A stretch of 64,000 nucleotides of DNA. Origin: a virus. Each line of letters opens with the position of its first letter. The stretch's first letter is position 1. Below are positions 7,391 to 55,637 of this stretch, piece after piece. Under the pieces are notes generated by a model. The model had not been told where the DNA came from. It ran no database searches and saw only the letters and a list, made by a program, of their open reading frames with translations. The DNA lies in the IMG/VR virus record IMGVR_UViG_3300009154_000033, positions 49,695 through 113,694 of that record. One strand, written 5' to 3'. Made by a program: the position numbers and the translations under genes.

Positions 7391-8548
7391 CTACTTAGTT
7401 GGTAAAAGGTCTGCATCTTTGCTTTTATACAGATCGGTAACTAGCTTTACTGCACGATCGAAAGGAGGCTCAAACTCGTTGATTGCTCTCTTCCAGACAG
7501 CGCGTATTGCTGGAACTACTTCATACCCTAAACCTGAATATTCAGCTAGAGAGTAAATTGCATCTTCTGGACTGCTGTAGTCCATTTCAGATTTAATAGA
7601 GATGGCAAGATCTCTACTGGCAGCAATAGATGCAGTCAGGCCTTGACTAGTGTCTACTGTGCTGCAAGGGTGGCTAGTAGGTAGCAAATCATTGTCCTGC
7701 GTATAACGCGCATTTGATGGACGCTTATTTTCTACCAGAGATAGGAATGCTTGTACTCTAGCTTCTGCCCAAGTAGATAGTTCGGTGTCTGGCTTACCGC
7801 TAGCGGTGAAGGCACGAACACCTCGTCTATATACTGCACGCAAAGTCGCGATTGAGACAAGATCATCTAAATCTTTTCCAGCATTGTGCTCTTTGGTCCA
7901 ACGTGAAAGTTGTTTTTCAGTTTCATTTGAAAAGGTAACTTTTTTAGTTAGGTAAGCATTGTCATTCTTTGCAGCGGAAACGTAAACAGGAGTTGCAGGC
8001 TGATCTACCACATCTTGCGATGCTGTTATAGGTAGGTCAGCCTCAGATTTTCCCAAGTCGCCCTGAGCTGTTGAATCAGCTCCAATGATTGTGCCTAGCT
8101 GCCATGCCCACTTGTTGTGCTGGTCATCGCGTTCAGCTAGGAAGTTTGCAATACCCTGCTCGTTAAGAGCATTGGCAATATCAAAAGCAGCTCTGATTAC
8201 GCTGATAATGTAAGCATTTGCTTGGTAAAGAGATGCAGACATGTCAACTGGATCAGCTGAAACTGGAGTTGCTTGAATTCCTGTAAGAGATGCGTAGTCA
8301 GTTAGCAAGAATGGTGCATCAAATCCTAGTTTGCGAATGTTTTCTGCAAAAGGGTCGATTGCACCGTCTGCATCTTCATAGATTTCTGCAAACTTGTCGT
8401 GGAACTGTGGAAAGTTGATTCCACGTACGTTCCAGTGGTAGCCGTGTGATAGAAATTTGAAAGTTACTGTATCTGAGAGCAGAACAGCTAGCATCTGAGC
8501 AAGATCTTGCTTAGTAGCCGGGACTTCCTGAGTAATTGATAAATCCAT
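7391..8548 (-). CDS. Dps/ferritin-like domain fused to DLLP-motif phage domain
   Basis: Residues 12-165 match the Dps family: HWNVRG at 38-43, then FH at 49-50 and D65/E69, which correspond to the Dps ferroxidase ligands (two His, Asp, Glu). Residues about 200-300 carry a different domain with VYRRGVRAF, WAEARVQAFLSL and YTQDNDLLPTSHPCS, found again at 52979-54064. The protein sits between the portal and the giant head protein, 17 bases after the portal stop, with its own ribosome site (GGAGAAAATCC before ATG). Dps proteins bind DNA and oxidise iron. In a head operon this could mean a protein packaged with, or protecting, phage DNA. The ferroxidase residues are intact, so it is likely active. 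The fusion architecture is what makes it unusual. Confidence 0.8.
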   Translation of the reverse strand: MDLSITQEVPATKQDLAQMLAVLLSDTVTFKFLSHGYHWNVRGINFPQFHDKFAEIYEDADGAIDPFAENIRKLGFDAPFLLTDYASLTGIQATPVSADPVDMSASLYQANAYIISVIRAAFDIANALNEQGIANFLAERDDQHNKWAWQLGTIIGADSTAQGDLGKSEADLPITASQDVVDQPATPVYVSAAKNDNAYLTKKVTFSNETEKQLSRWTKEHNAGKDLDDLVSIATLRAVYRRGVRAFTASGKPDTELSTWAEARVQAFLSLVENKRPSNARYTQDNDLLPTSHPCSTVDTSQGLTASIAASRDLAISIKSEMDYSSPEDAIYSLAEYSGLGYEVVPAIRAVWKRAINEFEPPFDRAVKLVTDLYKSKDADLLPTK

Positions 8549-17723: not shown

Positions 17724-17779
17724 CTAGGTGATTTTTCCTAACTAATAAAACTTTACCAGTTCCAGCTGGGAATAGTCAA
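17724..17779 (-). promoter_or_regulatory. Palindrome promoter cassette, copy 4
   Basis: TTGACT, 18 bases, TAAAGT, 7 bases, then GTTAGGAAAAATCACCTAG on the minus strand. Confidence 0.8.
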
Positions 17780-17797
17780 GTATGTAGCAAATAAAAA

Positions 17798-17825
17798 TAA
17801 GCAGTTTAGACACTTGCTCAGGTGT
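17798..17825 (-). ncRNA. Pseudoknot element a
   Basis: Minus strand: ACAC-C-TGAGCA-A-GTGT-CTAAAC-TGCTTA. ACAC pairs with the GTGT inside the loop closed by TGAGCA/TGCTTA, giving an H-type pseudoknot. It begins six bases after a stop codon and is followed by TTTTTATTT. Confidence 0.65.
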
Positions 17826-17831
17826 TTAGAA

Positions 17832-18026
17832 TTATTCGTGATCGTCATAATCAGGTTCAGGTGGCTCAAAGGTTATAGTGTTCTCGGCATCACACTCATC
17901 ACAGATTACAATTTTTTCACCATCTCCCCTAGAAACTGTTTGCTCGCTGTCCTCGTTCTCATACTCACACTTCTCACAAGTGAAAGATACTGATACTGAT
18001 ACTTCATCATCTCCGTATTCAAACAT
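17832..18026 (-). CDS. Acidic two-CxxC zinc ribbon
   Basis: 64 aa with CEKC and CDEC pairs about 23 residues apart: a classic zinc ribbon. Paralogous to the product at 20823-21035 (both have VSFxCxKCExEN...CxEC.xEN). The ribosome site GGAG is eight bases from ATG. Zinc ribbons this small often contact nucleic acid or RNA polymerase; here that is only a guess. Confidence 0.7.
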   Translation of the reverse strand: MFEYGDDEVSVSVSFTCEKCEYENEDSEQTVSRGDGEKIVICDECDAENTITFEPPEPDYDDHE

Positions 18027-18044
18027 TTTACATCTCCATTTTCC

Positions 18045-18100
18045 GTTAGGTCGTTTGCCTAACTAATCCAACTTTAGCATCTCCGTATAGAAATAGTCAA
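18045..18100 (-). promoter_or_regulatory. Palindrome promoter cassette, copy 5
   Basis: TTGACT, 18 bases, TAAAGT, 7 bases, GTTAGGCAAACGACCTAAC. Confidence 0.8.
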
Positions 18101-18127
18101 ATAAATAAATAATTTTTTTGCGTGTTT

Positions 18128-18292
18128 CTATTTTCTAAATCTTTTCCTGATCCAAAAAGTTCCGTGAGTTCGGCAGAATACTTTGTGCCTACAAGGAACT
18201 AAAACTAATATTCCGTAATCTTTTGGTTCTTGGATTAGTCCTAATGCGAACTGTTCCGCTTGTTCAGCGTCAGCTGGTTTCTCTATAAACAT
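18128..18292 (-). CDS. Small hypothetical protein
   Basis: 54 aa (starts MFIEKPADAEQAEQ; ends RKRFRK), nine bases after the preceding stop with an unusual all-G ribosome site (eight G). CRHKVFC and THG could be a metal site. Co-transcribed with the zinc-finger gene upstream. No family recognised. Confidence 0.5.
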   Translation of the reverse strand: MFIEKPADAEQAEQFALGLIQEPKDYGILVLVPCRHKVFCRTHGTFWIRKRFRK

Positions 18293-18301
18293 AACCCCCC
18301 C

Positions 18302-18499
18302 CTAATCTATCTTGGGATAGTAAGGGGTTGGGTCATAGCAACTCTCGCAATAACCAGTCTTGTCATTAGCCGTATAGCGTTCGGTATCTATCAGGGGATT
18401 AGTAGCCGTAATAAGTTCATCACAACTAGGGCAAACTTCGTTAGTTGCTGATAGTCCAACAATTTTAGCAACCTTGTTGATGTCTAGAAAGTTTTCCAT
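18302..18499 (-). CDS. Zinc-finger protein with NPLIDxERY...CYDPTP motif
   Basis: 65 aa from MENFLDINKVAKIVGL; an in-frame ATG nine bases earlier is an alternative start. CPSC and CESC pairs flank NPLIDTERYTANDKTGY. The same module recurs at 22988-23236, so these are paralogs. The N-terminal AKIVGL part could be a short DNA-binding helix pair. Function unknown. Confidence 0.6.
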   Translation of the reverse strand: MENFLDINKVAKIVGLSATNEVCPSCDELITATNPLIDTERYTANDKTGYCESCYDPTPYYPKID

Positions 18500-18512
18500 T
18501 TTTCTCATTTCT

Positions 18513-18568
18513 GTTCGGCAACTTGCCTAACTAATAAAACTCTATCACCGCAAGTTTTATTCCGTCAA
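18513..18568 (-). promoter_or_regulatory. Palindrome promoter cassette, copy 6 (degenerate arm)
   Basis: TTGACG, 18 bases, TAGAGT, 7 bases, GTTAGGCAAGTTGCCGAAC: one arm departs from the consensus. Confidence 0.7.
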
Positions 18569-18607
18569 GTATCTAAGTATTTTATTTTGGCGTGTCTAGG
18601 TAAAACT

Positions 18608-18637
18608 AAACCCCTGCCTGAGCTTCGGCAAGGGTTC
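18608..18637 (-). terminator. Rho-independent terminator
   Basis: CCCTTGCC-GAAGCTCA-GGCAGGGG then TTTAGTTTT on the minus strand, 14 bases after the 92-aa gene. Confidence 0.8.
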
Positions 18638-18650
18638 AGTTTCACGATCT

Positions 18651-18929
18651 CTATAAGGCTCGTAAGGCTTCTACAAGGCTAGGGTATTGTCCGTATTCAC
18701 TAATAGTTTCTATGCCTGTATCGGTGACTAGCCTGATAGTAAAAACCTTAGTGTCCTGCTGGTAGTTCCATTCGCTAGTTACAAACTTTAGACCCTGTTC
18801 AGTTTCTTTCAGGCTTGACCAAAAAATAGTTGATTTGAAAAACTCCAGTGTTGATTTAGAAAACCACTCTTTATTATCGGCAACAATTTTTTGCCAAACT
18901 GGACTTGACTTGGTGACTTGTAGTTTCAT
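18651..18929 (-). CDS. Hypothetical protein
   Basis: 92 aa, mixed alpha/beta, Trp-rich N-terminal half (VWQKIVADNKEWFSK, IFWSSL, SEWNYQ), ending EYGQYPSLVEALRAL. No domain recognised. Stand-alone cassette with its own palindrome promoter and terminator. Confidence 0.6.
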   Translation of the reverse strand: MKLQVTKSSPVWQKIVADNKEWFSKSTLEFFKSTIFWSSLKETEQGLKFVTSEWNYQQDTKVFTIRLVTDTGIETISEYGQYPSLVEALRAL

Positions 18930-18950
18930 TTTTCTACTTTCTTTATTTTG

Positions 18951-19005
18951 ATTAGGCGATTACCTAACTACTAAAATCCTAGATCACTTATCGGCATTTA
19001 GTCAA
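18951..19005 (-). promoter_or_regulatory. Palindrome promoter cassette, copy 7
   Basis: TTGACT, 18 bases, TAGGAT, 7 bases, GTTAGGTAATCGCCTAAT. Confidence 0.8.
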
Positions 19006-19032
19006 GATTATTCTGGCGTGTCCAAAAATAAA

Positions 19033-19060
19033 AAACCCCTAGCCTTTCGGCTAAGGGCTT
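19033..19060 (-). terminator. Rho-independent terminator
   Basis: GCCCTTAGCC-GAAA-GGCTAGGGG followed by TTTTTTATTTTT on the minus strand. Confidence 0.85.
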
Positions 19061-19074
19061 TCTACTCTCGGGGC

Positions 19075-19353
19075 TTAGTCCTGCTTAGTCAAGTCCAGAA
19101 CTAACTCGGCAGACATATCGCCAGTCCAAACTATCTCAATGTCATCGTGACTGTCTATGTAATCTTGGTCAGGGTATCCAGTAAAATCGTGTCCAATAAT
19201 CTCGTTATCTTCTCTAACCTGATCCATAGCATCATCTTCATCTTCGGCAAAAACAGTTCCCATTAGTTCAATGTTCCTGAGTTCGCAATCTCTGTCATAG
19301 CCGAAAGGGTAAATTTCAATCCACCAATAAACTCGATATTCTTTCTTTTCCAT
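19075..19353 (-). CDS. Acidic hypothetical protein
   Basis: 92 aa, strongly acidic (FAEDEDDAMDQVREDNEIIGHDF, shortened), starting MEKKEYRVYWWIEI. The pattern of an N-terminal strand followed by EDEDDAxDxVRE resembles small phage proteins with a ferredoxin-like fold. Good ACGGAG ribosome site; own promoter and terminator. Confidence 0.6.
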   Translation of the reverse strand: MEKKEYRVYWWIEIYPFGYDRDCELRNIELMGTVFAEDEDDAMDQVREDNEIIGHDFTGYPDQDYIDSHDDIEIVWTGDMSAELVLDLTKQD

Positions 19354-19370
19354 TTTTTACTCCGTAACTG

Positions 19371-19425
19371 CTAGGCACTTCACCTAACTACTTCAACTTT
19401 ATCAGTCCCGAATGGAAATAAGCAA
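19371..19425 (-). promoter_or_regulatory. Palindrome promoter cassette, copy 8
   Basis: TTGCTT, 18 bases, TAAAGT, 7 bases, GTTAGGTGAAGTGCCTAG. Confidence 0.75.
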
Positions 19426-19464
19426 GCGTGTCGGTATTTATTTTTTGGATCTCTAGAAATCTCT

Positions 19465-19623
19465 CTAAGACTTCTTTACCCTGACCATACGCTTTAGTCT
19501 TAGGTTCAGCTCAAAGGGAATTAGACCGGCAAGCATAGCCCTATAAAGTAAGTCATAGGTTCTAAACCTGTCTAGTCTGTCCAGCTCGGCAACTCGTTCT
19601 GGCGTGAATTTAGTTCTTCTCAT
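19465..19623 (-). CDS. Small basic protein
   Basis: 52 aa from MRRTKFTPERVAEL, chosen because AAAGGAGG precedes this ATG; a longer upstream frame lacks a ribosome site. Basic, helical, with RFRTYDLLYRAMLAGL. It may bind nucleic acid. Function unknown. Confidence 0.5.
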   Translation of the reverse strand: MRRTKFTPERVAELDRLDRFRTYDLLYRAMLAGLIPFELNLRLKRMVRVKKS

Positions 19624-19703
19624 TTTGCCTCCTTTGTAGTTAGTCATTACATAAATAATAACTTCTAATCGGCATAAAAAATTCCCGATCTCTAAAAAAT
19701 AAA

Positions 19704-19731
19704 TGAACCTTTTAGACACTTGTTCAGGTGT
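19704..19731 (-). ncRNA. Pseudoknot element b
   Basis: ACAC-C-TGAAC-AA-GTGT-CTAAAAG-GTTCA then TTTATTTTTT. The second stem (TGAAC/GTTCA) differs from other copies on both sides, keeping pairing. Confidence 0.65.
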
Positions 19732-19770
19732 GTTCGGCAGAGGGGAAATGAAAGAAACCCTCTCCCAAGT

Positions 19771-19962
19771 CTATTTACGCCTATTACGCTTTCTAATAAA
19801 TCTAGGAAGCTCGGCAACTGCTAGTAGCAACGCTACAAACAATAGCAGAAATGCCAAAGTAAATCCAATCTCAAATGCTCGCTGATTATTGTCGGCTATA
19901 AATCCATAATAGATACCGCAACCAGCAGACCATAAACCTAATACTGCCAAAAATGTTTTCAC
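19771..19962 (-). CDS. Two-helix membrane protein
   Basis: 63 aa from a GTG start (GTG AAA ACA). Hydrophobic FLAVLGLWSAGCGIYYGF and IGFTLAFLLLFVALLLAVA, ending in a basic RFIRKRNRRK tail. An inverted repeat GAGGG/CCCTC (19739-19765) follows. Function unknown. Confidence 0.5.
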   Translation of the reverse strand: MKTFLAVLGLWSAGCGIYYGFIADNNQRAFEIGFTLAFLLLFVALLLAVAELPRFIRKRNRRK

Positions 19963-19994
19963 AACTTCACCGCAACTTTCTATTAGTTTTTAGT

Positions 19995-20022
19995 TGAGCC
20001 TTTTTAGAACTTGCTCAGGTTC
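19995..20022 (-). ncRNA. Pseudoknot element c
   Basis: GAAC-C-TGAGC-AA-GTTC-TAAAAAG-GCTCA. The first stem is GAAC/GTTC instead of ACAC/GTGT: both sides changed together. It begins five bases after the stop codon of the HTH gene. Confidence 0.65.
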
Positions 20023-20027
20023 GGCAC

Positions 20028-20255
20028 TTACTTTACTTTCTCGCCAATTGCGATCAGTAATTCAGTTGGAGAAACTTCCAGCTCACGACATAGCACCGCC
20101 AAAGTATTTGACGGAATGTGTCGTTGATTATGAAAGTATCGGCTAAGGCTAGACTTCTGTAAGCCTGTTGCGATAGCGAATTGGTTTAGAGATTTGTATC
20201 CCTGTTGCTCGTAGCGAGCAATAAACCAAGTCCAAGTATCAACTTTTTTTCCCAT
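20028..20255 (-). CDS. Cro/C1-type (XRE) helix-turn-helix regulator
   Basis: 75 aa. SLNQFAIATGLQKSSLSRYFHNQRHIPSNTLAVLCRELEVS is a complete five-helix HTH_3 domain (abbreviated here to its outline), and the protein is little more than that. It lies inside the field of palindrome promoters and is a natural candidate to bind them, though nothing shows this directly. A second XRE protein lies at 27381. Confidence 0.8.
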   Translation of the reverse strand: MGKKVDTWTWFIARYEQQGYKSLNQFAIATGLQKSSLSRYFHNQRHIPSNTLAVLCRELEVSPTELLIAIGEKVK

Positions 20256-20328
20256 TTTTTCACCTCTTTTCGTCTTGATGTATTCAGTTTAGTTGCTGTT
20301 TGGAAACTTTGTCAAGTTTATCCGCATT

Positions 20329-20457
20329 TTATTTTTTGGCGTTTCTACGATCTCTTGACTTGGTATCAAGCTTGTTCGCATACCAACTAAGTCGGTGTCC
20401 TGTATTCATTAGCACTCCGCTAATACTTCTAAGACTTCTAGCAATTTTATTTAGCAT
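20329..20457 (-). CDS. Small basic peptide gene
   Basis: 42 aa (MLNKIARSLRSISGVLMNTG...KSRDRRNAKK), starting inside the last 11 bases of the upstream zinc-finger gene. Basic and possibly amphipathic. Low certainty. Confidence 0.4.
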   Translation of the reverse strand: MLNKIARSLRSISGVLMNTGHRLSWYANKLDTKSRDRRNAKK

Positions 20458-20623
20458 TATCTAATCTCTCTTTATCGGTGTTCCCCTGTAATACAGCATA
20501 GCGTTCTGCTCGCCACTCTTTACACTCTCGGCACTCTTGTTTATGTGTGTTCTCACCAATGTATTTTACTTCCGTAAGCTTGCCACAAGACCAGCAGGCG
20601 ATCTTAGATTTTCTATCTTTCAC
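20447..20623 (-). CDS. Small two-CxxC zinc finger
   Basis: 58 aa from GTG with ribosome site GGAAAGG. CWSCGK and CRECKEW make a plausible treble-clef zinc site, as in small HNH-like or recombination proteins. Too short for most gene finders. Confidence 0.55.
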   Translation of the reverse strand: MKDRKSKIACWSCGKLTEVKYIGENTHKQECRECKEWRAERYAVLQGNTDKERLDNAK

Positions 20624-20647
20624 TTTTGCCTTTCCAAAGATTTAGGT

Positions 20648-20675
20648 TGAGCCTTTTAGACACTTGCTCGGGTGT
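20648..20675 (-). ncRNA. Pseudoknot element d
   Basis: ACAC-C-CGAGC-AA-GTGT-CTAAAAG-GCTCA, nine bases after the stop of the 45-aa zinc protein. The second stem is one pair shorter. Confidence 0.6.
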
Positions 20676-20684
20676 TGTTGCTAG

Positions 20685-20822
20685 TTAGTGCTGTTCACAT
20701 CCACAGCAGTTATCGCAAGCGATAGGGTTGCTGTTTGCGCAAACACAGAATATATCCAGTTCTGTTTCGCATTTAGGGCAAAGTGCTATCTGTCCTGTTG
20801 TAGTTCTGATAAACTCGTCCAT
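20685..20822 (-). CDS. Cys-rich micro-protein
   Basis: 45 aa with CPKC, CVC and CDNCCGC; abuts the upstream zinc-ribbon stop (no spacer), so co-translated. Probably binds zinc. Function unknown. Confidence 0.5.
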   Translation of the reverse strand: MDEFIRTTTGQIALCPKCETELDIFCVCANSNPIACDNCCGCEQH

Positions 20823-21035
20823 TTAGTCATCACCAAAACTAACGCTGTTGTTCTCGCCACACTCGGCACACTCAACATCAACATCTCCCGACCTGCCACC
20901 AACTACAACTTCTACGCTGTCGTTCTCAACTTCACACTTGCCACACTCAAAGCTGACGCTAATCTCTCGTTCATTATCCCAAGGGGTAGCAGTTCTCCAA
21001 CCATCATAACCGCCACCAATGTCGTATCCACTCAT
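20823..21035 (-). CDS. Zinc ribbon, paralog of the 17832 product
   Basis: 70 aa. A Gly-rich N-terminus, then VSFECGKCEVEN and VECAECGENNSVSF. Same spacing as the other ribbon, so recent duplication is likely. Own palindrome promoter. Confidence 0.65.
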   Translation of the reverse strand: MSGYDIGGGYDGWRTATPWDNEREISVSFECGKCEVENDSVEVVVGGRSGDVDVECAECGENNSVSFGDD

Positions 21036-21051
21036 TTTTATCTCCGTATCT

Positions 21052-21107
21052 GTTAGGCGATTTACCTAACTACTCCAAGATTACTATCTCCGTATAGAAA
21101 TAGTCAA
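21052..21107 (-). promoter_or_regulatory. Palindrome promoter cassette, copy 9
   Basis: TTGACT, 18 bases, TAATCT, 7 bases, GTTAGGTAAATCGCCTAAC. Confidence 0.8.
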
Positions 21108-21175
21108 GTATTTAGATTATTTATTTTTCGGTGTGTCGCAAGTTTCACCAGATCGTCTTTTTTCGGGCAAAGCTA

Positions 21176-21205
21176 AACCCCCTAACCATTTAGGCTAAGG
21201 GGTTC
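21176..21205 (-). terminator. Stem-loop terminator
   Basis: AACCCCTTAGCC-TAAAT-GGTTAGGGGGTTT on the minus strand directly after the prepilin-peptidase gene. Confidence 0.75.
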
Positions 21206-21215
21206 GGCTTACTTC

Positions 21216-21689
21216 CTAGATACTCATAACTCCGTATGTTCCAATAACTAGGGATAGAACAATGGCGTAAGGTCCTAGTGGAACGCTAGTTCCAGCCTTA
21301 GCCTTACGAATAACCACCCGATAGAGCGTTGCGACAATGCCAGCAATAAGGCTTACAGCAACCAATACCACCGGCAACCACCAGACAAACCAGCCGATTA
21401 CTAGGGAACTACCAAAGAATAACTTGATGTCCCCCATACCTAATAAGTCATAGTAGTTAGCAAACATACCAGCAATACCGATACCAAACGCAACTGCCAA
21501 AGCTAATCCTAATCTCCACCACTCTCCACCAGCGAAACTAGCAACTAAGTCGGCAACCAAACTCATAACGATAAATGGCAGGATAATCTTGTTCGGTAGT
21601 CGGTGTTCTCTAATGTCTATGACGATTAGGGGAATAGCAACGATAGCCAGATAAACCAATGGCATTACAGCGATAAGTGTTGTGTTCAT
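21216..21689 (-). CDS. Type IV prepilin peptidase (A24 family)
   Basis: 157 aa, mostly transmembrane. The two catalytic Asp of A24 leader peptidases are present: VIDIREHRLPN (about residue 25) and LLGMGDIKLF, the GxGD motif (about residue 88). The C-terminus has the usual VPLGPY. The length matches the short TadV/archaeal-like forms that lack the N-methylase domain. It processes prepilins at the membrane. It stands alone as a single-gene cassette with its own palindrome promoter and terminator. I see no prepilin in the window, so the substrate is presumably a host Tad or type IV pilin. Confidence 0.85.
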   Translation of the reverse strand: MNTTLIAVMPLVYLAIVAIPLIVIDIREHRLPNKIILPFIVMSLVADLVASFAGGEWWRLGLALAVAFGIGIAGMFANYYDLLGMGDIKLFFGSSLVIGWFVWWLPVVLVAVSLIAGIVATLYRVVIRKAKAGTSVPLGPYAIVLSLVIGTYGVMSI

Positions 21690-21712
21690 TTGAGTTCCTT
21701 ACTCTCATTTAG

Positions 21713-21768
21713 GTTAGGCGATTACCTAACTACTCTCAACTTTACTAAACCTGTTCGGGAATAGTCAA
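21713..21768 (-). promoter_or_regulatory. Palindrome promoter cassette, copy 10
   Basis: TTGACT, 18 bases, TAAAGT, 8 bases, GTTAGGTAATCGCCTAAC; drives the prepilin peptidase. Confidence 0.8.
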
Positions 21769-21775
21769 GTTATTT

Positions 21776-22060
21776 TTAGGCGTGTTTTACTAAATAAACA
21801 ATGGCAATGTATTCATCAGCATAGGTCGCAACATTATCGGTAAATGTCCAGTTGCGAGCTTTATCTATGTCTAACCACGAAAGTTTGCCGGTGCTATCTT
21901 TTAGGGCAACGCTGTTAGTTTGTAGTTTCCCTATCGTTCTGACCTGATCTAGAAACTTATGAGGTTTTTCCTCACCTGTCTTTATGTCTAGGTATTTGAT
22001 AATCGTTAGGGTTGTATCAGGCTTGGCTAATACTCTTTTGAACTCGGCAAGTGTTTTCAT
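21776..22060 (-). CDS. Hypothetical protein
   Basis: 94 aa. Strand-rich with TLTIIKYLDIKTGE and the segment KFLDQVRTIGKLQTNSVAL. Good AAAGGAG ribosome site. Short intergenic distance to the coiled-coil gene upstream. No family recognised. Confidence 0.55.
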   Translation of the reverse strand: MKTLAEFKRVLAKPDTTLTIIKYLDIKTGEEKPHKFLDQVRTIGKLQTNSVALKDSTGKLSWLDIDKARNWTFTDNVATYADEYIAIVYLVKHA

Positions 22061-22102
22061 TAGTTCTCCTTTTTTAGTTGTGTTCTAACTTTACCAGCTT
22101 GG

Positions 22103-22351
22103 CTAGTCTAAGCCAAACTCTTTTCTAAACTTAACAATGTCTAATCTAGTTTCGGTAATCATCTCACCTAGTTCATTAGACTTTATTGTCGCCTGTTCTA
22201 GCTGTGATAATAGCCTGTCTAGAAACGCTAAGTCTTTATTCGGTGTTGTCTTTACCTGCTCGGTAATACCTTCCAATAGAGATAATAACCCTGCTCGTCT
22301 AGATTTTAGATCTAGTAATCTCTGTTGTAGTTGTTCTAGTTGCTCGTTCAT
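22103..22351 (-). CDS. Small coiled-coil protein
   Basis: 82 aa, nearly all helical heptads: LEQLQQRLLDLKSRRAGLLS, then LLSQLEQATIKSNELGEM. No Cys or membrane segment. Likely oligomeric. Function unknown. Confidence 0.55.
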   Translation of the reverse strand: MNEQLEQLQQRLLDLKSRRAGLLSLLEGITEQVKTTPNKDLAFLDRLLSQLEQATIKSNELGEMITETRLDIVKFRKEFGLD

Positions 22352-22418
22352 TTTTATTTTCCCTTGTTAGTGATAAAGGTGATAACCCTTTTGGATTACC
22401 ACCTTTATCGGTGTAGTT

Positions 22419-22775
22419 CTAACTTACCTTATCGGCATACGCTAACGCAAACTGCTCGGCAGTATAAGTTTCTCCGTCATACTGAACTGAACCTGTATCG
22501 GCATTTACAACAACGACAGGATTATCGTCAAAGGTGTCGCTAGGCTCTGCCTTTATTGCTCTAATGCCGAAACTCAACTCTCCGTTGTAGTTTCCTAACT
22601 TTGCGTATTCATAGAATAGCTGTGCTGTTAGATAAGACGGGTCGCCTATTCTGCCCGTTCTGTCCAATACATTACCAACTGCCTTAGCGTTGTCTGTGCC
22701 TGACCAATGCCCATAAAGTTCTATGGCTGTATCAAACTGCTCGCTTGTGATGTGGATAGTTGCTCTATCGCCCAT
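22419..22775 (-). CDS. Conserved phage protein, MGDRA family
   Basis: 118 aa starting MGDRATIHITSEQFDTAIEL with YGHWSG and FGIRAI. I recognise the MGDRA...YTHW...FGI outline from a widespread uncharacterised family in phages and bacteria. A TTGACT promoter without the palindrome lies upstream (near 22850), and ACCACCGA precedes the ribosome site. Confidence 0.65.
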   Translation of the reverse strand: MGDRATIHITSEQFDTAIELYGHWSGTDNAKAVGNVLDRTGRIGDPSYLTAQLFYEYAKLGNYNGELSFGIRAIKAEPSDTFDDNPVVVVNADTGSVQYDGETYTAEQFALAYADKVS

Positions 22776-22884
22776 TTTTGTTTCTCCTTTTTCGGTGGTT
22801 TATTTTTTTTGGTGCTAACTAATCTAACCACAACTACCTAAGATTAGTCAAGCTTATTTTCCGGTATGTTCCCTAAATAAAAAA

Positions 22885-22912
22885 TAAGCCTTTTATACAC
22901 TTGCTTAGGTGT
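22885..22912 (-). ncRNA. Pseudoknot element e
   Basis: ACAC-C-TAAGC-AA-GTGT-ATAAAAG-GCTTA then TTTTTTATTT. The second stem, TAAGC/GCTTA, covaries. Two inverted repeats (GAGCAAGGG/CCCTTGCTC and TTGGCAGT/ACTGCCAA) lie between it and the preceding stop. Confidence 0.65.
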
Positions 22913-22987
22913 GGAGCAAGGGAGAAATGAGAGAAACCCTTGCTCGTTGGCAGTAGTGTTAGGGGGGACTAACTGCCAAGCTTGTTT

Positions 22988-23236
22988 TTAGTCTGGTGTC
23001 GGGTCATAGCAATTATCGCAATAACCGATTTTGTCGCTTACAGCATAGCGTTCAGCGTCAATGAGTGGATTATTCTCGTCTATCTGTGCCTTACACAACG
23101 GACATCTCTCAACAACTTCATTATTGTTGATAAGCATTTCTAGATCGTGTAAAGCTTGTTCGGCACTAATCTCCTTGGAGTAGTAGTCGTTGTAAATAGC
23201 CTTTACTGCTTTCTGCTCAACTTCGTTCATTTCCAT
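22988..23236 (-). CDS. Zinc-finger protein, paralog of the 18302 product
   Basis: 82 aa from the ATG preceded by AAGGAG. A helical N-terminal half (EVEQKAVKAIYNDYYSKEIS), then CPLC, NPLIDAERYAVSDKIGY and CDNCYDPTPD. The C-terminal module is shared with the 18.3-kb protein. Confidence 0.6.
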   Translation of the reverse strand: MEMNEVEQKAVKAIYNDYYSKEISAEQALHDLEMLINNNEVVERCPLCKAQIDENNPLIDAERYAVSDKIGYCDNCYDPTPD

Positions 23237-23253
23237 TTTCTGCTCCTTGTTTT

Positions 23254-23297
23254 TCGGTGGTAGTTCCACTTTACTCGGCTTGATTACTTTTTGTCAA
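23254..23297 (-). promoter_or_regulatory. Promoter with GGAACTACCACCGA leader
   Basis: TTGACA, 18 bases, TAAAGT, then GGAACTACCACCGA. The promoter lies partly inside the 3' end of the upstream gene. Similar GAACTAC leaders follow the promoters near 29.1 and 33.4 kb. Confidence 0.7.
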
Positions 23298-23579
23298 GTT
23301 TTCTTTTAGATTAGAAATCTTGTCTGCTGTCCAAGGGCTATGATTACACTCGCAATGTGGTTTTACCCACTCCCTAGCAATACCGGCAGGGTCGTTGAAA
23401 CAAGTATCATCTATGTCATCTTGGAAACAACGGAGCATAAAGTCGGTGGTCTTTCCACACACTCCACAGCAATACTCAATAACTTCAAGCTTGTGTCCTA
23501 TGTGGTTGCTTAGGTAGTCATTGAAATAGAAACTTTTTGGATCACTAAAATCGCCTTTCGGCTTTCCCTGTTCGGTCAT
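23271..23579 (-). CDS. Cys-rich hypothetical protein
   Basis: 102 aa from MTEQGKPKGDFS; its ATG overlaps the upstream TGA (ATGA). CCGVCGKTTDFMLRC and HCECNHSPW supply a probable zinc site. Co-translated with the 60-aa gene. Confidence 0.6.
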   Translation of the reverse strand: MTEQGKPKGDFSDPKSFYFNDYLSNHIGHKLEVIEYCCGVCGKTTDFMLRCFQDDIDDTCFNDPAGIAREWVKPHCECNHSPWTADKISNLKENLTKSNQAE

Positions 23580-23758
23580 TTTTTCTTTGCTTTCTTGATA
23601 GTTAGTTTTACTTCTACGCTGTAAAAGCGTTCTACAACTTCCCTTGCTGTTTCCCAATAGCCTAAGTCTATGGCGGTTTCTCGGTGAGTTCTAACTAACT
23701 CGTCTGCTAGGCGTTCTAGTAGTTCATCATTGGTTAGGTGTTTTACATACTTGGTCAT
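23576..23758 (-). CDS. Small helical hypothetical protein
   Basis: 60 aa (MTKYVKHLTNDELLERLADE; ends KKAKKK). Helical, charged, Lys-rich tail. Leader carries ACCACCGA before the ribosome site. Confidence 0.55.
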   Translation of the reverse strand: MTKYVKHLTNDELLERLADELVRTHRETAIDLGYWETAREVVERFYSVEVKLTIKKAKKK

Positions 23759-23871
23759 TTTTCTACTTTCATTTTCGGTGGTATCTCTACCTTACCACTT
23801 TTCTCGGTAAAAAGTAAATCCCCTAATCCAAACTCTCGGTTCGGTTTATTAGGGGATCGCTTTTTTAGTTC

Positions 23872-24174
23872 TTAGACAAGCTTTATGTATTCGTATTCGG
23901 TTGTTCTTAGGCACTCGTCAAACGCAACAGGGAACTTCTCTTTCATCAAGGCACGATCAAAACTTGTGTTCTTTCCTGCCTGTAAAACATACGAACCCTG
24001 TCCAGCAACAACTCCACGCTTGGCACCATTTAGAGCCTGTGCCAAGATTTCGGTAGCCTGTGCCTTTTGTGTTTCTAGTTCTGCCATTTGGAGCTTGATA
24101 GTTTTTAGCAGGGCATAAGCTTCTTTTGCTTTTTTGCTTGTGATTTTTACTTCTTGTGGTTCTTGATTTTCCAT
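23872..24174 (-). CDS. Hypothetical protein with coiled-coil N-terminus
   Basis: 100 aa. Residues 12-50 form a helix (SKKAKEAYALLKTIKLQMAE, LETQKAQATEIL), then SYVLQAGKNTSFDRALMKEKFP. This layout (long helix, short beta hairpin, 'D..L....P..y') is common in small phage proteins next to SSB or recombination genes. Its leader contains the palindrome TTGGAAGTTCCAA. Confidence 0.55.
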   Translation of the reverse strand: MENQEPQEVKITSKKAKEAYALLKTIKLQMAELETQKAQATEILAQALNGAKRGVVAGQGSYVLQAGKNTSFDRALMKEKFPVAFDECLRTTEYEYIKLV

Positions 24175-24288
24175 TTATTTACTTCCTTAGTTCTGTGCCG
24201 ATTTCGGCTATTGGAACTTCCAATACTTCTAACTTAGTCTTTTCTCTAATCTAAGTCAAGTTTATTTTCATTTATTTTTTCGGTGTGT

Positions 24289-24558
24289 CTAACTATTTTC
24301 TAAATAGCTTTGATACTGCTCTGTTCTTTCTATTACCCTGATCAGTTTTTTATTGTTGGTTAGGGTAGCAAAATCCATTAGACACTCGGCTCGGTTGTAA
24401 TACTTTTTTGTTTTTATCCAAGCTCCGTTTAGTGTTCGGTAAGTCAGGCTTGCTCTAATCTCTGCTCCATACTCGGCAGAATAAGTAAGCTCTAACTTTG
24501 TCTTAGCGTTCTCTATTTTCCAGATCGCTATTCTTGATAGTTCGTAATCAACTTTCAC
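24289..24558 (-). CDS. Hypothetical protein
   Basis: 89 aa; IENAKTKLELTYSAEYGAE and TLTNNKKLIRVIERTEQYQS. It overlaps the upstream DUF3846 stop by four bases (ATGA). No domain recognised. Confidence 0.55.
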   Translation of the reverse strand: MKVDYELSRIAIWKIENAKTKLELTYSAEYGAEIRASLTYRTLNGAWIKTKKYYNRAECLMDFATLTNNKKLIRVIERTEQYQSYLENS

Positions 24559-24938
24559 TTGGTTTCCCCTTTTTTCATCTCGGCTTTTTCTAGTCTAGTA
24601 GCCGATACTAAAACCTGAATTTTGTTTCCGTCTGCCAAGCTTAGTCCTAAGCAGTTTCCGTTAGTATCAGTTCCACCTGTAAGGATTACATTACCAACGA
24701 TTATGTCCGTAGCTCCAAAATAATAATTCCAAATAGCAGTTGCTCTGTGGTTGTAAGGTAGTCCGTCTAGTTTGCCTTCCTCGTTTGTCCACATAGTCAT
24801 AGTTGGCGATAATCTAACGATCTCTAAATAACCGCCAACGACTTCCTTGATAACTTCGTATTCGGTTTCGGCAGTAAAGCTCACAACTTCTAGTTCCCCT
24901 GCTGTCTTGATAATTAGGGCTTGCTTTTGATTTTCCAT
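24555..24938 (-). CDS. DUF3846-like protein
   Basis: 127 aa. The outline matches DUF3846 as I know it: EVIKEVVGGYLEIVRL, then MWTNEEGKLDGLPYNHRAT, FGATDIIVGNVILTGGTD and GLS near the end. The family is common in actinophage early regions and uncharacterised. Confidence 0.7.
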   Translation of the reverse strand: MENQKQALIIKTAGELEVVSFTAETEYEVIKEVVGGYLEIVRLSPTMTMWTNEEGKLDGLPYNHRATAIWNYYFGATDIIVGNVILTGGTDTNGNCLGLSLADGNKIQVLVSATRLEKAEMKKGETK

Positions 24939-25052
24939 TTTTTTCCTTTTTGTCGGGATAGTTCCATTGTTCCAAATAGGTATCGGTAAGTCAAGTATTT
25001 CGGCAAAAAAAAATTCGCCAAGTTTTTAGCCTGACGAATTCTTTTCGGTTGC

Positions 25053-25460
25053 CTAATCTCTGGTCAAATCCTCAATAGTGTCGGCTGGTGGCTCTGTGTG
25101 GCTACTAGGTTTCGCTGTTCTGCTGAAAGTGCTGTTGCCATAGGTCAAGTCGTGTCCAATTGTTTCTGCTTCTATCTCAACGCTTGTTCCTGCTCGTTCG
25201 CCATTGTCCCAATCACGAACACGCAACTTACCTGAAACGATTACACGATCGCCTTTGCTAACACTTGTAGCAACATTTACCGCTAATGTTCTAAACGCAG
25301 TAATGGTGAACCAATTTGTGTCGCTATCAACCCAACGATTTTGTGTTCTATCCCAACGCCTGATACTACTTGCTAGACGGAAACTTGTAATCTCTAATCC
25401 GTCTTGCGTTACTATGTGGCGTGGTGTTGTTGCTACTAGCCCTGTTGTTATGTATTCCAT
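25053..25460 (-). CDS. ssb: Single-stranded DNA-binding protein
   Basis: 135 aa. OB-fold hallmarks: FRLASSIRRWDRTQNRWVD, NWFTITAFRTLAVNVATSVSKGDRVIVSGKLRVRDW (given in outline) and VEIEAETIGHDL. The WxD...TNW...F...A.N...S..KGDRV..G pattern is that of actinobacterial SSB. The short C-terminus ends DTIEDLTRD and lacks the usual acidic DDxPF tip, which normally recruits repair partners. Confidence 0.9.
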   Translation of the reverse strand: MEYITTGLVATTPRHIVTQDGLEITSFRLASSIRRWDRTQNRWVDSDTNWFTITAFRTLAVNVATSVSKGDRVIVSGKLRVRDWDNGERAGTSVEIEAETIGHDLTYGNSTFSRTAKPSSHTEPPADTIEDLTRD

Positions 25461-25491
25461 TTTATTCCTTTGTTATCGGTGGTTTTTTTGG

Positions 25492-25519
25492 TAAGCAGTT
25501 TAGATACTTGCTTAGGTAT
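25492..25519 (-). ncRNA. Pseudoknot element f
   Basis: ATAC-C-TAAGCA-A-GTAT-CTAAAC-TGCTTA: both stems carry paired substitutions relative to copy a. 37 bases after the stop of the 172-aa gene. Confidence 0.65.
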
Positions 25520-25556
25520 TTAGGCGTTTGCCTATGGTCTTAGTTTAGTGGTTTCA

Positions 25557-26075
25557 CTAACAAATCTCAAATCCACCACTATCGGTTAGAAACTCGGCAA
25601 ACTCTTTTATGTCATCAAGCTCCAAATCGTAGTTAGTTTCCCAACTATCTTTCTTGCCCTCGCCATTACAACCATTACACCAACCCTTTTCTCTACCTAA
25701 GAGAATAGCCAAATCCGGTGCTAATTCACGATCAGACATTTTGTTCTCAACGCCAACCTTGTCGGTTCTAATACCTGTGCCTTGACACCACTCGCAATTT
25801 TCTCTTGGCAAAAGTGATAAGTGTATGTTTCTTGCTTTTACATAAGTGCTTGCTGTTCCGTCAGACAAATCTTTTACAAGCAAGCGAGCAAGCTCCACGC
25901 TGTCGTTAGCGTCAAGTCCATCACCATCGTTAGTGTGTCCGTTCTTTACCTTGCCAGCAAGGTCTGTGTGTCGGTCTAGGCAGTAGTCCCATAGTGGTCG
26001 CCAGCCCCATACATTTCTACGGAAGTAAGTTCCCTTTTCGCTTTTTGGATTTTTTCCATAAACATCCATACCCAT
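25557..26075 (-). CDS. Conserved MGMDVYGKNP protein with two DnaJ-type zinc motifs
   Basis: 172 aa. It starts MGMDVYGKNPKSEKGTYFR with WGWRPLWDYC, an outline I recognise from an uncharacterised family in bacteria and phages. CEWCQGTG and CNGCNGEG are CxxCxGxG repeats as in the DnaJ zinc centre. A TTGACT/TAATTT promoter and a GAAAGG ribosome site precede it. Confidence 0.7.
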   Translation of the reverse strand: MGMDVYGKNPKSEKGTYFRRNVWGWRPLWDYCLDRHTDLAGKVKNGHTNDGDGLDANDSVELARLLVKDLSDGTASTYVKARNIHLSLLPRENCEWCQGTGIRTDKVGVENKMSDRELAPDLAILLGREKGWCNGCNGEGKKDSWETNYDLELDDIKEFAEFLTDSGGFEIC

Positions 26076-26132
26076 TTTTGATTTCCTTTCAGTCGGGTTA
26101 TGTTTCCAAATTACCAGCTAATCAGATACAAG

Positions 26133-26276
26133 TCAAGTTTCTTTACAAAACTTTTCGTGGATTTTCCAAAACAAGTTATCAACTCCACGCCACCACCAGA
26201 AGTAATACCACCGATTAGCGTGAGCATACATTTTACAAACTAGGGGTCTGCCCTTACAGATTTCGCAGTTGATCAC
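26133..26276 (-). CDS. Trp-rich micro-protein
   Basis: 47 aa from a GTG that overlaps the upstream TGA (GTGA). CEIC near the start and a block WYYFWWWRG. Its stop lies in the promoter of the next gene. Modest support. Confidence 0.4.
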   Translation of the reverse strand: MINCEICKGRPLVCKMYAHANRWYYFWWWRGVDNLFWKIHEKFCKET

Positions 26277-26572
26277 TTATCAAGCTTTATCTTGTAGTGG
26301 TTCGGCACTAGGTCATTTAGGTCAAACATAAACTCTAAGCTGTCGTATTGGTCTAGGTTCTCGTCAAGCCACTCCTCAAAATCCGGTGTGTATTTGATGT
26401 TGGTGATTAGCCAATAGCCCTCGTCAATTTCCATTTGACACCATTGTTCAGTTCCTCGCCACTCAAACCAAATCTGTCTGCCAGCGTTTTCTAGCCAAGC
26501 TCCCTCAACTTTTGTAATGACTACATCAGGGATAAAGTTGTTGTCCTCGTTGGCGTATAGATCGTATTTCAT
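26273..26572 (-). CDS. Acidic Trp-rich hypothetical protein
   Basis: 99 aa with MKYDLYANEDNNFIPDVVIT, WFEWRGTEQWCQME and FEEWLDENLDQYDSLEFM. Good AAAGGA ribosome site. Mixed alpha/beta. Function unknown. Confidence 0.6.
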   Translation of the reverse strand: MKYDLYANEDNNFIPDVVITKVEGAWLENAGRQIWFEWRGTEQWCQMEIDEGYWLITNIKYTPDFEEWLDENLDQYDSLEFMFDLNDLVPNHYKIKLDK

Positions 26573-26597
26573 AGATTTCCTTTTCTAAGAAGTTAGG

Positions 26598-26625
26598 TGA
26601 GCAGTTTATCAACTTACTCAGGTTT
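26598..26625 (-). ncRNA. Pseudoknot element g (most divergent)
   Basis: AAC-C-TGAGTA-A-GTT-GATAAAC-TGCTCA: first stem three pairs, second stem six pairs with one U-G. It lies just upstream of the 99-aa gene rather than directly after a stop. Confidence 0.5.
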
Positions 26626-29207: not shown

Positions 29208-31052
29208 CTATCGCCCTATTCGCATACCTGCTTTGGTAAGAGCCTCTGCCCCTGCCTTACCAACAATTTCAGCAACTTCGGTAATCGCACCCTTGACTTT
29301 TACAAGCTGTGTGTCCGAACCCTCAATAACAGCACTAGCATAAACACCCTGATCGTAAGTTATCCATAGGACACCCACCCCTGCTTGCTTACATCTTTGT
29401 AGCCAAGACTTACACGCTTTGATTTCCTCGTTGGTGTAGCAAGCGTCAGAAACGATTACTAGCAACCTCGCACTTGTTCCACCAAGTAAATCAAGTTGTC
29501 CGTTTAGTGCCTGAAATCCTAAGTCAAACTTTTCAGTTCCGTCTGGTGCTGTATAGACATTTACATCTTCCAAGTGTTGTCCTACACGCAAGGTTGGAAA
29601 CACGCCTGAACCGAAATAGACCATAGCAGTCTTAGCCTGAACACGCCTACCTGCCTCACTCAAAATCCAAGCTGTGCTTGCCATAGGTTTCATAGCAGAA
29701 CCCATAGAACCTGAAACATCTACCATAATCCCAATAGACAAGTTAGGTGTTTCGGTGTGCTTGCGAGTTTTGTGTCGCCAAGTTTCCACCTGCGACATAA
29801 TGCCCTTAGACCTAAGAGCCTCACGCTGAACCATAGCCCTAGAACGCAACCTGCCCTGTGGCATAACCGAGTTGATTTTAGTTTCAGTTCTGTTTCTGTA
29901 TTTAGCTTTCATAAACAACTTAGCAATTAGAACAGCACTTGCTCTTTCAGCAGAAGTAGGCTTGCGAGTTTCCTCTAAGCGAGAACCTGAACCACCCGAA
30001 CCAATAGTTTCTTTCTCACCAAATACACGCTGACCAACTGCCTTGTGCTTGTTCTTTTCCTCTGTGGCGTTGCTCTTGCTCTTGGCTTTTTCTTTTGAGT
30101 GTTCGCCCTCTTGCTGATCGGCTAATTTGTCGTTAGCAGTCATTTCAGCGTTTTCTTTGGCGTTCTCAACTTCTTTCAGCATTTCCTCAATGGTCTTACT
30201 GCGACCCTTGCTTTTGCCCTCGCCCTCACCCTCGCCCTCACTTTCGCCCTCGCCCTCACCACTAGGGAACTCGCAACCACCTTGCGTATCGTCCTCGCCC
30301 TTTTCTTTGGCTCGTTCAGATACAAGTCTGTCCCACTCAATAGCAAGAGGGTAAAGGTCAGTAGCGTTGTGGTGATTATCGTGAGCTTGTGCTTTTAGCC
30401 ATAGTTCTCTCAACTTCTCAATAAAGTCAATGCCTAGTTTTGTTTCTAACATTTCAGCAATACCCTCAACATCACTTCTGTAAAGAATACCGGCATCTAT
30501 TCTTGCCAAGACTAATCCTGCCAAGTGAGCCAATGCCCTAGTTTCAGACATTAGGGAAAGCGTATCAACATCACACTCGGCTAACACGATCTCTAAGGCA
30601 CAAGAGGTTAGAAAATAACGATTAGTTGGAATAGCCATAGCACCAAATCCCTCAATGCGACTTTCCTCTAACAAGTGGAGAGCTTTGTTTTGTCTAGGGG
30701 TCAAGTCCTTAGAACTTTGTTCCAATGACCAACGAGAGAACTTAGCGTGGCAAGCCTCGTGGTAGATAGCACCGATAGCCTTTGGAAACTCATACTGATT
30801 ATTTTTGTCTGCCAAGTTAGGAATAAAACTTGGTGGAATAGTCCCAAAAGCAATTTCCGTATTTACTTCTATCTCTGACGAAATAGGGTTGTATAGAGCA
30901 GGAACGGGTGCGTTTAGTTTTGTTCCAACATAAGCGATCAAGTCAGTTCTGCCTGACCAAGTATTAGCAAGTTCGCCAATAGTTTTTCCAATAGGTAGCC
31001 ACTCTTTCGGTGTAGCCTTTACACCATTTGAGTTAGTTCCGAAGTGCGACAT
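29208..31052 (-). CDS. HExxH metallopeptidase-like / VWA protein (CobT/DUF2201-like)
   Basis: 614 aa. N-terminal YHEACHAKFSRW contains HExxH, and a downstream Glu in LLEESRIEG could be the third ligand as in gluzincins. A charged low-complexity middle (GEGEGESEGEGEGEGKSKG) is followed by a von Willebrand A domain from about residue 440 with MIDAS motif DVSGSMGS and later TSAR and SDACYT. This matches CobT/DUF2201-type VWA proteins that work with MoxR ATPases. The AAA+ partner is encoded immediately upstream. A metal-dependent chaperone or remodelling role on phage or host complexes is likely; the target is unknown. Confidence 0.85.
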   Translation of the reverse strand: MSHFGTNSNGVKATPKEWLPIGKTIGELANTWSGRTDLIAYVGTKLNAPVPALYNPISSEIEVNTEIAFGTIPPSFIPNLADKNNQYEFPKAIGAIYHEACHAKFSRWSLEQSSKDLTPRQNKALHLLEESRIEGFGAMAIPTNRYFLTSCALEIVLAECDVDTLSLMSETRALAHLAGLVLARIDAGILYRSDVEGIAEMLETKLGIDFIEKLRELWLKAQAHDNHHNATDLYPLAIEWDRLVSERAKEKGEDDTQGGCEFPSGEGEGESEGEGEGEGKSKGRSKTIEEMLKEVENAKENAEMTANDKLADQQEGEHSKEKAKSKSNATEEKNKHKAVGQRVFGEKETIGSGGSGSRLEETRKPTSAERASAVLIAKLFMKAKYRNRTETKINSVMPQGRLRSRAMVQREALRSKGIMSQVETWRHKTRKHTETPNLSIGIMVDVSGSMGSAMKPMASTAWILSEAGRRVQAKTAMVYFGSGVFPTLRVGQHLEDVNVYTAPDGTEKFDLGFQALNGQLDLLGGTSARLLVIVSDACYTNEEIKACKSWLQRCKQAGVGVLWITYDQGVYASAVIEGSDTQLVKVKGAITEVAEIVGKAGAEALTKAGMRIGR

Positions 31053-55184: not shown

Positions 55185-55336
55185 TACTTACTCCTTATCT
55201 AATCCGTGGACTGTGTAGATTTGCACTACCGACTACTACTTATCGAATCGACTCGTAGCACCTTGGCTACGCCAGTCCTTGGAGATTCCGTTGCCTAGGA
55301 CGGGTAGACCGCTTTACGCTCCTTTGTCTACAAGCG

Positions 55337-55637
55337 TGGAGATGCGGGGAATCGAACCCCGGTCCAATTGACATTCAGTTATTCTTCTACAAGCTTAGGT
55401 TTTACCAACCACGGTATTACAGGGCACTACGAGAGGATTTGTTCTACTTATTTAAAACCTGACTGCCCACCTAGAACTAGTGCTTTGTCAGGGGCCTAAG
55501 CGTTGCGATTAAATCACGCGGCTAGAGCGAATGCGGAAGTACGTTCAGCATTTATTGTTTTACCACACTTTAAGAATGCGTGGCCGTTTCTGCTTGCTTC
55601 ACTAACATCAAGACAACTGTCGAAACCAGTCATCCCC
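55337..55637 (-). ncRNA. ssrA: tmRNA
   Basis: The 5' end GGGGATGACTGGTTTCGACA is the canonical tmRNA start, and the 3' end has the T-arm CGGGGTTCGATTCCCCG followed by CATCTCC, which pairs with GGGGATG (one G-U). CCA is not encoded. The tag frame ends NAERTSAFALAA-stop (55514-55558 on the minus strand); the -ALAA end is the usual degradation tag. The resume codon is not certain. It rescues stalled ribosomes and tags the nascent chain. Confidence 0.92.

Follow-up and report, generated by a model that had tools for sequence, protein, structure and literature searches.

A 28-nucleotide covarying pseudoknot in phage genomes, a candidate 3'-boundary element of phage mRNAs

This report deals with a small H-type RNA pseudoknot, 28 nucleotides (nt) long, that occurs in hundreds of loci, most of them in phages and prophages. 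Seven copies of it (a to g) lie in the stretch analyzed here, a 64-kb piece of DNA (the window) that forms the right-hand portion of a 113.7-kb virus record (IMGVR_UViG_3300009154_000033). The genome is freshwater actinophage-like, and relatives of one of its proteins occur in phages of Gordonia, Microbacterium, and lake Actinomycetia. All seven copies are on the minus strand, co-oriented with the surrounding genes. The pseudoknot fold is established by covariation of its two stems. Based on its genomic contexts, we tentatively read the element as a 3' boundary of phage mRNAs, which would end or cap the transcript of the upstream gene.

Fold, covariation, and RNA strand

A first-pass annotation of the window had described seven minus-strand sites that fit a single pseudoknot model, and all seven are present. 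The architecture consists of a first stem (S1) of 3-4 bp, a second stem (S2) of 5-6 bp, a loop 1 of one base (C), and a loop 3 rich in A; the family consensus reads NNNC-C-URRRY-AN-GNNN-NNAAA(CU/AG)-RYYYA. The bare geometry is matched 18 times on the minus strand and 22 times on the plus strand of the 64 kb, and geometry alone is therefore not significant; it is the shared sequence and the homologs that settle the reality of the copies in the window. For such an unconstrained geometry scan a backwards-read control is uninformative, as both strands together are symmetric for base pairing. The controls used were thus sequence-constrained reversed sequences and scans with mutant patterns.

The mutant scans bear out the annotated fold strongly. 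Exchanging an S1 A-U pair for U-A as a paired swap still yields at least 120 IMG/VR contigs, and either single change yields none (0 and 0). For S2, the paired swap from A-U to G-C gives 25 matches in the whole-collection scan, against 5 for the A.C mismatch. Equally telling is the third S1 pair, which was not fixed by the search and is Watson-Crick in 124 of 124 IMG/VR copies (GC 69, CG 29, AU 24, UA 2) and in 76 of 80 GTDB copies. Even the innermost S1 pair flips (CG 549, GC 3, UA 2). In a set of 135 distinct sequences, 95.8% of cells pair, two-sided changes occur at seven of the nine pairs, and covariation scores 0.38, whereas shuffles give 0.15 and slid partners no more than 0.13; as pairing was among the criteria by which these sequences were chosen, the independent tests weigh more. 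Taken together, the covariation of the stems is decisive.

The loops are conserved as well. The loop 1 C was built into the detector, and a scan with loop 1 left free likewise returned C in all family-like copies. Loop 2 combines one variable base (A, U, C, or G) with a constant A, and loop 3 ends in AAA followed by either CU or AG; with CU, its U pairs with the constant A to give a sixth S2 pair. The strand of the RNA, which the annotation had deduced from G-U pairs, is set by such pairs in S2 (U-G in 25 cells and G-U in 14 among the 135 sequences), and in 113 of 115 multi-copy loci every copy lies on one strand.

Family size and hosts

The description as a seven-copy family was right for this virus and too modest for the family as a whole, whose spread over many phyla had been missed. 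With a relaxed detector, 345 loci yield 556 copies, and reversed sequence yields none; a stricter set, clustered by flanking DNA, comes to 216 independent loci. A degenerate pattern that demands no pairing at S1 pairs 3-4 matched at least 120 contigs among 2.9 million in IMG/VR, compared with 13 matches for the reversed pattern in the entire collection, and gave 79 matches in GTDB genomes (a complete count). Searching the virus's full genome, as had been proposed, added nothing: the remaining ~50 kb of the record yielded no additional copies.

The carriers are mostly phages and prophages, with hosts from about 11 bacterial phyla, including Bacillota, Actinomycetota, Bacteroidota, Cyanobacteriota, Pseudomonadota, Campylobacterota, and Patescibacteria. 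Public records with the knot comprise Bacillus phages Page and Pony, Anoxybacillus phage A403, Lactobacillus phages phig1e and phiEF-1.1, Arthrobacter phage Amigo, Roseobacter phages SIO1 and CRP-6, Lentibacter phages ICBM1-3, Sinorhizobium phage ort11, and the crAss-like phages cr7_1 and cr124_1; Staphylococcus phages of the phiETA type carry a degenerate version. No copy was found in DSL-LC01, an annotated actinophage relative. Copies also occur in genomes of Cyanobacteria, Patescibacteria, Campylobacterota, Chloroflexota, and Ignavibacteria (loci L136-L214). The upstream genes tested there mostly have no match in Pfam or PHROGs, and some of these copies may therefore sit in non-phage elements. 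Short-query searches, which have limited sensitivity, gave essentially no matches in gammaproteobacterial phages. As those make up the bulk of classical phage work, the element may simply have been overlooked.

Position behind genes

The most striking regularity is the distance to the upstream stop codon. In 193 independent loci, S1 starts 5, 6, or 7 nt past the stop in 31, 29, and 14 cases, respectively (74 together), with five loci at 8 nt and a single one at 0-4 nt; the opposite-strand control has none. In the first set, 37 loci were observed at the stop spacing versus 4.9 expected under uniform placement. The same loci also contain ordinary 3' hairpins behind stops, whose distances scatter without a spike (18 of 168 at 5-7 nt, 17 at 0-4 nt). 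The distance from the knot to the next start codon is broad, and since the tie to the upstream stop is tight and that to the next start loose, the element appears to belong to, and serve, the upstream cistron. The flanking coding sequence shares the strand of the knot in 122 loci, is on the opposite strand in 10, and is unclear in 16. The stop spacing, the strand consistency, and the tRNA junctions described below place the knot at cistron 3' ends, co-directional with the genes, as is to be expected of a 3' mRNA stabilizer.

The 8 nt behind the knot are AU-rich and G-poor (G 0.52 vs 1.65), with T enriched. A U-run of five or more follows in 26 of 148 loci, versus 4 at a control offset, and TATAAT is enriched 10-70 nt behind the U-run copies (0.14 vs about 0.03). 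A downstream promoter was rejected as a general feature, being confined to the U-run class, and so was an obligatory hairpin 5' of the knot, for which there is a weak enrichment away from stops (20% vs about 11%).

Three kinds of junction recur. At the first, a coding sequence and its stop are followed by the knot and then by a tRNA: a tRNA follows 60 of 465 copies at 2-12 nt, where 0.3 would be expected, and almost never precedes the knot. These are not 60 independent events, as tRNA-Asp accounts for 51 of them, but eight isotypes are represented, annotated phages included (Asp, Leu, Arg, Met, Ser, Val, Gly, and Gln). For example, Arthrobacter phage Amigo has the order ssb, pseudoknot, tRNA-Gly, crAss-like phage cr124_1 carries the knot 2 nt before tRNA-Val, and Sinorhizobium phage ort11 has it before tRNA-Gln. 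The gene order around knot and tRNA-Asp(GTC) is conserved across a large group of freshwater phages: in L049, L050, L053, L063, L078, and many others, a gene of ~340 amino acids ends in a stop, followed after 5-9 nt by the knot and after another 2-12 nt by the tRNA. As a general account, an RNase P substrate ending in RCC(A) was rejected, with RCC behind the knot in 20% of copies and ACCA in 10%.

The second kind of junction is a module of gene, stop, knot, UUUUUU, promoter, and next gene, found in 12, 9, and 8 copies in loci L252, L249, and L255, which are related; copy a of the window is of the same type. These loci are arrays of small genes in which nearly each unit runs from a promoter (TATAAT) through gene and stop to knot and U-run, and they are the best natural test bed for the element. 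Finally, knots lie inside operons before a ribosome-binding site, among them copies c, d, f, and g of the window. In Firmicutes phages, the knot sits between portal/minor-head genes and the scaffold gene, inside the head operon, and in Zobellviridae it marks the junction of ribonucleotide reductase and glutaredoxin.

Possible function and alternatives

The first-pass annotation had suggested an unusual terminator or a 3' stabilizer. This is the type of function that the contexts support best, and a 3'-boundary element that caps the 3' end is their simplest common denominator. We propose that phages place the compact knot at the 3' boundary of a cistron, where it would mark and cap the end of the upstream mRNA, whichever way that end arises, possibly by resisting 3'-to-5' exonucleases and/or by promoting termination. 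Ahead of a U-run, which in some phages leads on to the next promoter, the knot would supply the structure of a terminator. Immediately before a tRNA, it would cap the end left by RNase P. Inside operons, it would cap an end that arises when the AU-rich, G-poor stretch downstream is cleaved, and two cistrons could then decay at different rates. The clearest case is the tRNA junction, where processing by RNase P necessarily creates a fresh mRNA 3' end within a few bases downstream of the knot. Where a promoter follows, knot and U-run stand in the position of a terminator and together probably make the 3' end. The commonest site, at 5-7 nt, may be the nearest to the stop at which the knot can stay folded beside a terminating ribosome; judged by known ribosome geometry, the hard lower limit of 5 nt would fit a knot that stays folded with the ribosome on the stop codon.

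Several observations weigh against such a boundary role. In about a third of the loci, the detected stop is over 30 nt away or there is none, and stops of small open reading frames (ORFs) are just slightly enriched there. U-runs follow the knot in roughly one-fifth of loci and are lacking behind most copies, and a pair of helices with 4+5 bp makes, on paper, a weak barrier. The family also seems rare in gammaproteobacterial phages, a rarity that no 3'-cap model explains. Moreover, that hairpins in the same loci do not obey the 5-7 nt rule hints at a ribosome-specific role beyond that of a passive cap. Taken further, the knot would be a phage-wide module that works with the terminating ribosome, locked against it at the stop and thereby defining cistron ends, which we consider somewhat unlikely.

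The rival explanations start from the same observations. The knot could act on the ribosome itself: while the stop codon occupies the A site, the first pair of the knot would lie at the mRNA entry, and the knot would block post-termination sliding or pause ribosomes, thus insulating whichever cistron or tRNA comes next. The sharp spacing with almost no copies below 5 nt speaks for this, as do the hairpins that lack it, and in frameshift pseudoknots the distance from the A site to the knot equals the same 5-7 nt. Many copies are distant from any detected stop, though, and at the ends of transcription units there is nothing to insulate, which leaves direct action on the ribosome a rather unlikely account. 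Recoding by frameshift or readthrough was rejected, because spacings of 5, 6, 7, and 8 nt span all three frames and permit no conserved product. A plain intrinsic terminator with a pseudoknot in the hairpin's stead is less probable again. It would account for the modules of knot, U-run, and promoter, for copies a, b, and e of the window, for the TATAAT enrichment, and for T enrichment and G depletion over 8 nt, a stretch roughly as long as the RNA-DNA hybrid. Termination alone does not fit the U-run-less majority, however, nor the copies directly before tRNAs or ribosome-binding sites, where there is no space for a promoter, nor the Firmicutes phages that carry the knot upstream of scaffold and capsid genes within an operon.

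Conservation of the loops (the invariant loop-1 C and loop-3 AAA) and the near-fixed S2 sequence could also indicate regulation of the downstream gene through a protein or small molecule bound to the knot, in the manner of a riboswitch or of T4 gene 32, and copy f indeed lies 31 nt upstream of ssb. We deem this improbable: no downstream gene is shared (scaffold, glutaredoxin, primase, tRNA, and many unknowns are found), the spacing to the start codon is loose, and only 2 of 38 relatives of the window's ssb, both close ones, have a knot within 60 nt upstream, so that ssb autoregulation is not general. It is very improbable that the knot blocks the 5'-to-3' exonuclease RNase J and protects the downstream mRNA, as exonuclease-resistant RNAs (xrRNAs) would. 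The pseudoknot fold and the presence of RNase J in many hosts would suit such a barrier, and gammaproteobacteria, in whose phages the knot seems rare, mostly lack the enzyme. However, hosts with copies among Bacteroidota and their relatives (Chryseobacterium, Capnocytophaga, Flavobacterium, and Ignavibacteria) show no RNase J above the family cut-off, so the barrier is not general, and merely 5-7 nt between stop and knot would have to serve as the entry site. The least probable candidate is a self-cleaving ribozyme that separates cistrons. Its intergenic, phage-borne position and strongly conserved loop bases would be in keeping with one, but the knot is much smaller than the known classes, resembles none of them, and has no Rfam match.

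The seven copies in the window

Three copies lie 5-9 nt past a stop, as annotated, and three are directly followed by a U-run (a, b, and e). Copy a (17798-17825, minus strand as for all features in this section; ACAC.C.UGAGCA.A.GUGU.CUAAAC.UGCUUA) begins 6 nt past the stop of ORF 17832-18026 and runs into a U-rich tail (17786-17797, UUUUUAUUUGCU) and then the promoter-like TTGACT-18-TAAAGT of the next gene (17779-17750). Copy b (19704-19731; ACAC.C.UGAAC.AA.GUGU.CUAAAAG.GUUCA) has its upstream stop 39 nt before it and a U-rich tail at 19690-19703 (UUUAUUUUUUAGAG). Copy e (22885-22912; ACAC.C.UAAGC.AA.GUGU.AUAAAAG.GCUUA) is followed by the tail UUUUUUAUUUAG (22873-22884) and is preceded, at 1 nt, by a 9-bp stem-loop (22914-22945; GAGCAAGGG...CCCUUGCUC) with a loop similar to that of a stem-loop by copy b. 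The latter, immediately 5' of copy b (19739-19763; AGAGGG...CCCUCU, loop UUUCUUUCAUUUC), was read from the sequence, as were the TTGACT-type promoter of the next gene downstream of copy e's tail and the finding that copies a, b, and e occupy gene-end slots held elsewhere in the window by hairpins. The two stem-loops have the loop UUUCUYUCAUUUC in common.

Copy c (19995-20022; GAAC.C.UGAGC.AA.GUUC.UAAAAAG.GCUCA) starts 5 nt past the stop of ORF 20028-20255, which encodes a helix-turn-helix (HTH) regulator, and copy d (20648-20675; ACAC.C.CGAGC.AA.GUGU.CUAAAAG.GCUCA) 9 nt past that of ORF 20685-20822. Copy f (25492-25519; AUAC.C.UAAGCA.A.GUAU.CUAAAC.UGCUUA) precedes ssb (25053-25460), and copy g (26598-26625; AAC.C.UGAGUA.A.GUU.GAUAAAC.UGCUCA) lies 25 nt upstream of ORF 26273-26572. 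The stems are as the annotation gave them, apart from a C.A mismatch in the outer S2 pair of copy d (CGAGC/GCUCA) and an S1 of just 3 bp in copy g. A close relative, L371, has six copies at matching places, all those within its coverage of the window, and its outer S2 pair of copy d is intact (UGAGC/GCUCA).

Relation to known RNAs

The annotation's statement that the element is not a known riboswitch is in line with Rfam 15, whose covariance models match tmRNA and tRNA alone in the window, nothing over any copy in the region of copies a-d (to E=10), and solely tRNAs in 16 copy-bearing loci. Topic and sequence-string searches of the open-licence literature found no publication on this pseudoknot. 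The RNA family thus appears undescribed, although the H-type fold and the probable 3'-end role are of known kinds.

The gene 32 mRNA pseudoknot of phages T2 and T4 is likewise an H-type knot in a phage mRNA, and that of T2 has a single base in loop 1 and about seven in loop 3. It is, however, a single leader site for autoregulation by gp32, whereas the family described here has a different sequence and hundreds of sites behind varied genes. The frameshift knots of luteoviruses such as BWYV, of about 28 nt, have a short C-containing loop 1 and an A-rich loop 3 and lie 5-7 nt from the A-site codon. Size, loops, and spacing are common to both, but here the A-site codon is a stop, the frame is not constant, and there is no extended product. 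Type III antitoxin RNAs (ToxI) are also small, phage-related pseudoknots; they form tandem repeats beside a toxin gene, an arrangement not seen for the phage knot. Intrinsic terminators and stabilizing 3' hairpins (including the RNase III-made 3' ends of T7) similarly sit where cistrons or transcripts end, and some have a U-run, yet the knot is no hairpin, keeps a fixed stop spacing, and often lacks a U-run. STAXI RNAs (RF01728) are pseudoknots of mobile elements near DNA-metabolism genes (PMC2864571). They occur in tandem in Enterobacteria and have UUCG loops, whereas the phage knots are single and without UUCG, and the STAXI model has no match in this virus at E<=10.

With near-perfect covariation in 28 nt, the knot would rank with the smallest phage RNA families and with the most widespread. 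Its fixed place behind stops and before tRNAs makes a clear and testable case for transcript ends that phages shape without classical terminator hairpins. The knot would also serve annotators as a marker of phage transcription-unit structure and offer engineers a very small 3'-end part. Were the knot instead locked against the ribosome, it would be a general gene-boundary device common to phages whose hosts differ widely, one that escaped notice because the best-studied enterobacterial phages rarely or never carry it.

Other features of the window

Many small genes on the minus strand at 17740-21740 have a TTGACT-18-TAAAGT promoter, followed by a short GUUAGG-loop-CCUAAC hairpin before the ribosome-binding site. 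This leader hairpin looks like a second repeated RNA element, on the 5' side. A complete phage tmRNA (tag AERTSAFALAA) adjoins a tRNA-Met at 55334-55637 on the minus strand. Further features include a B12-dependent ribonucleotide reductase (57395-59437), a protein with relatives that bear the annotation cobalamin biosynthesis protein or AAA-ATPase (29208-31052), and a phage protein that joins a ferritin-like domain to DUF5824 (7391-8548).

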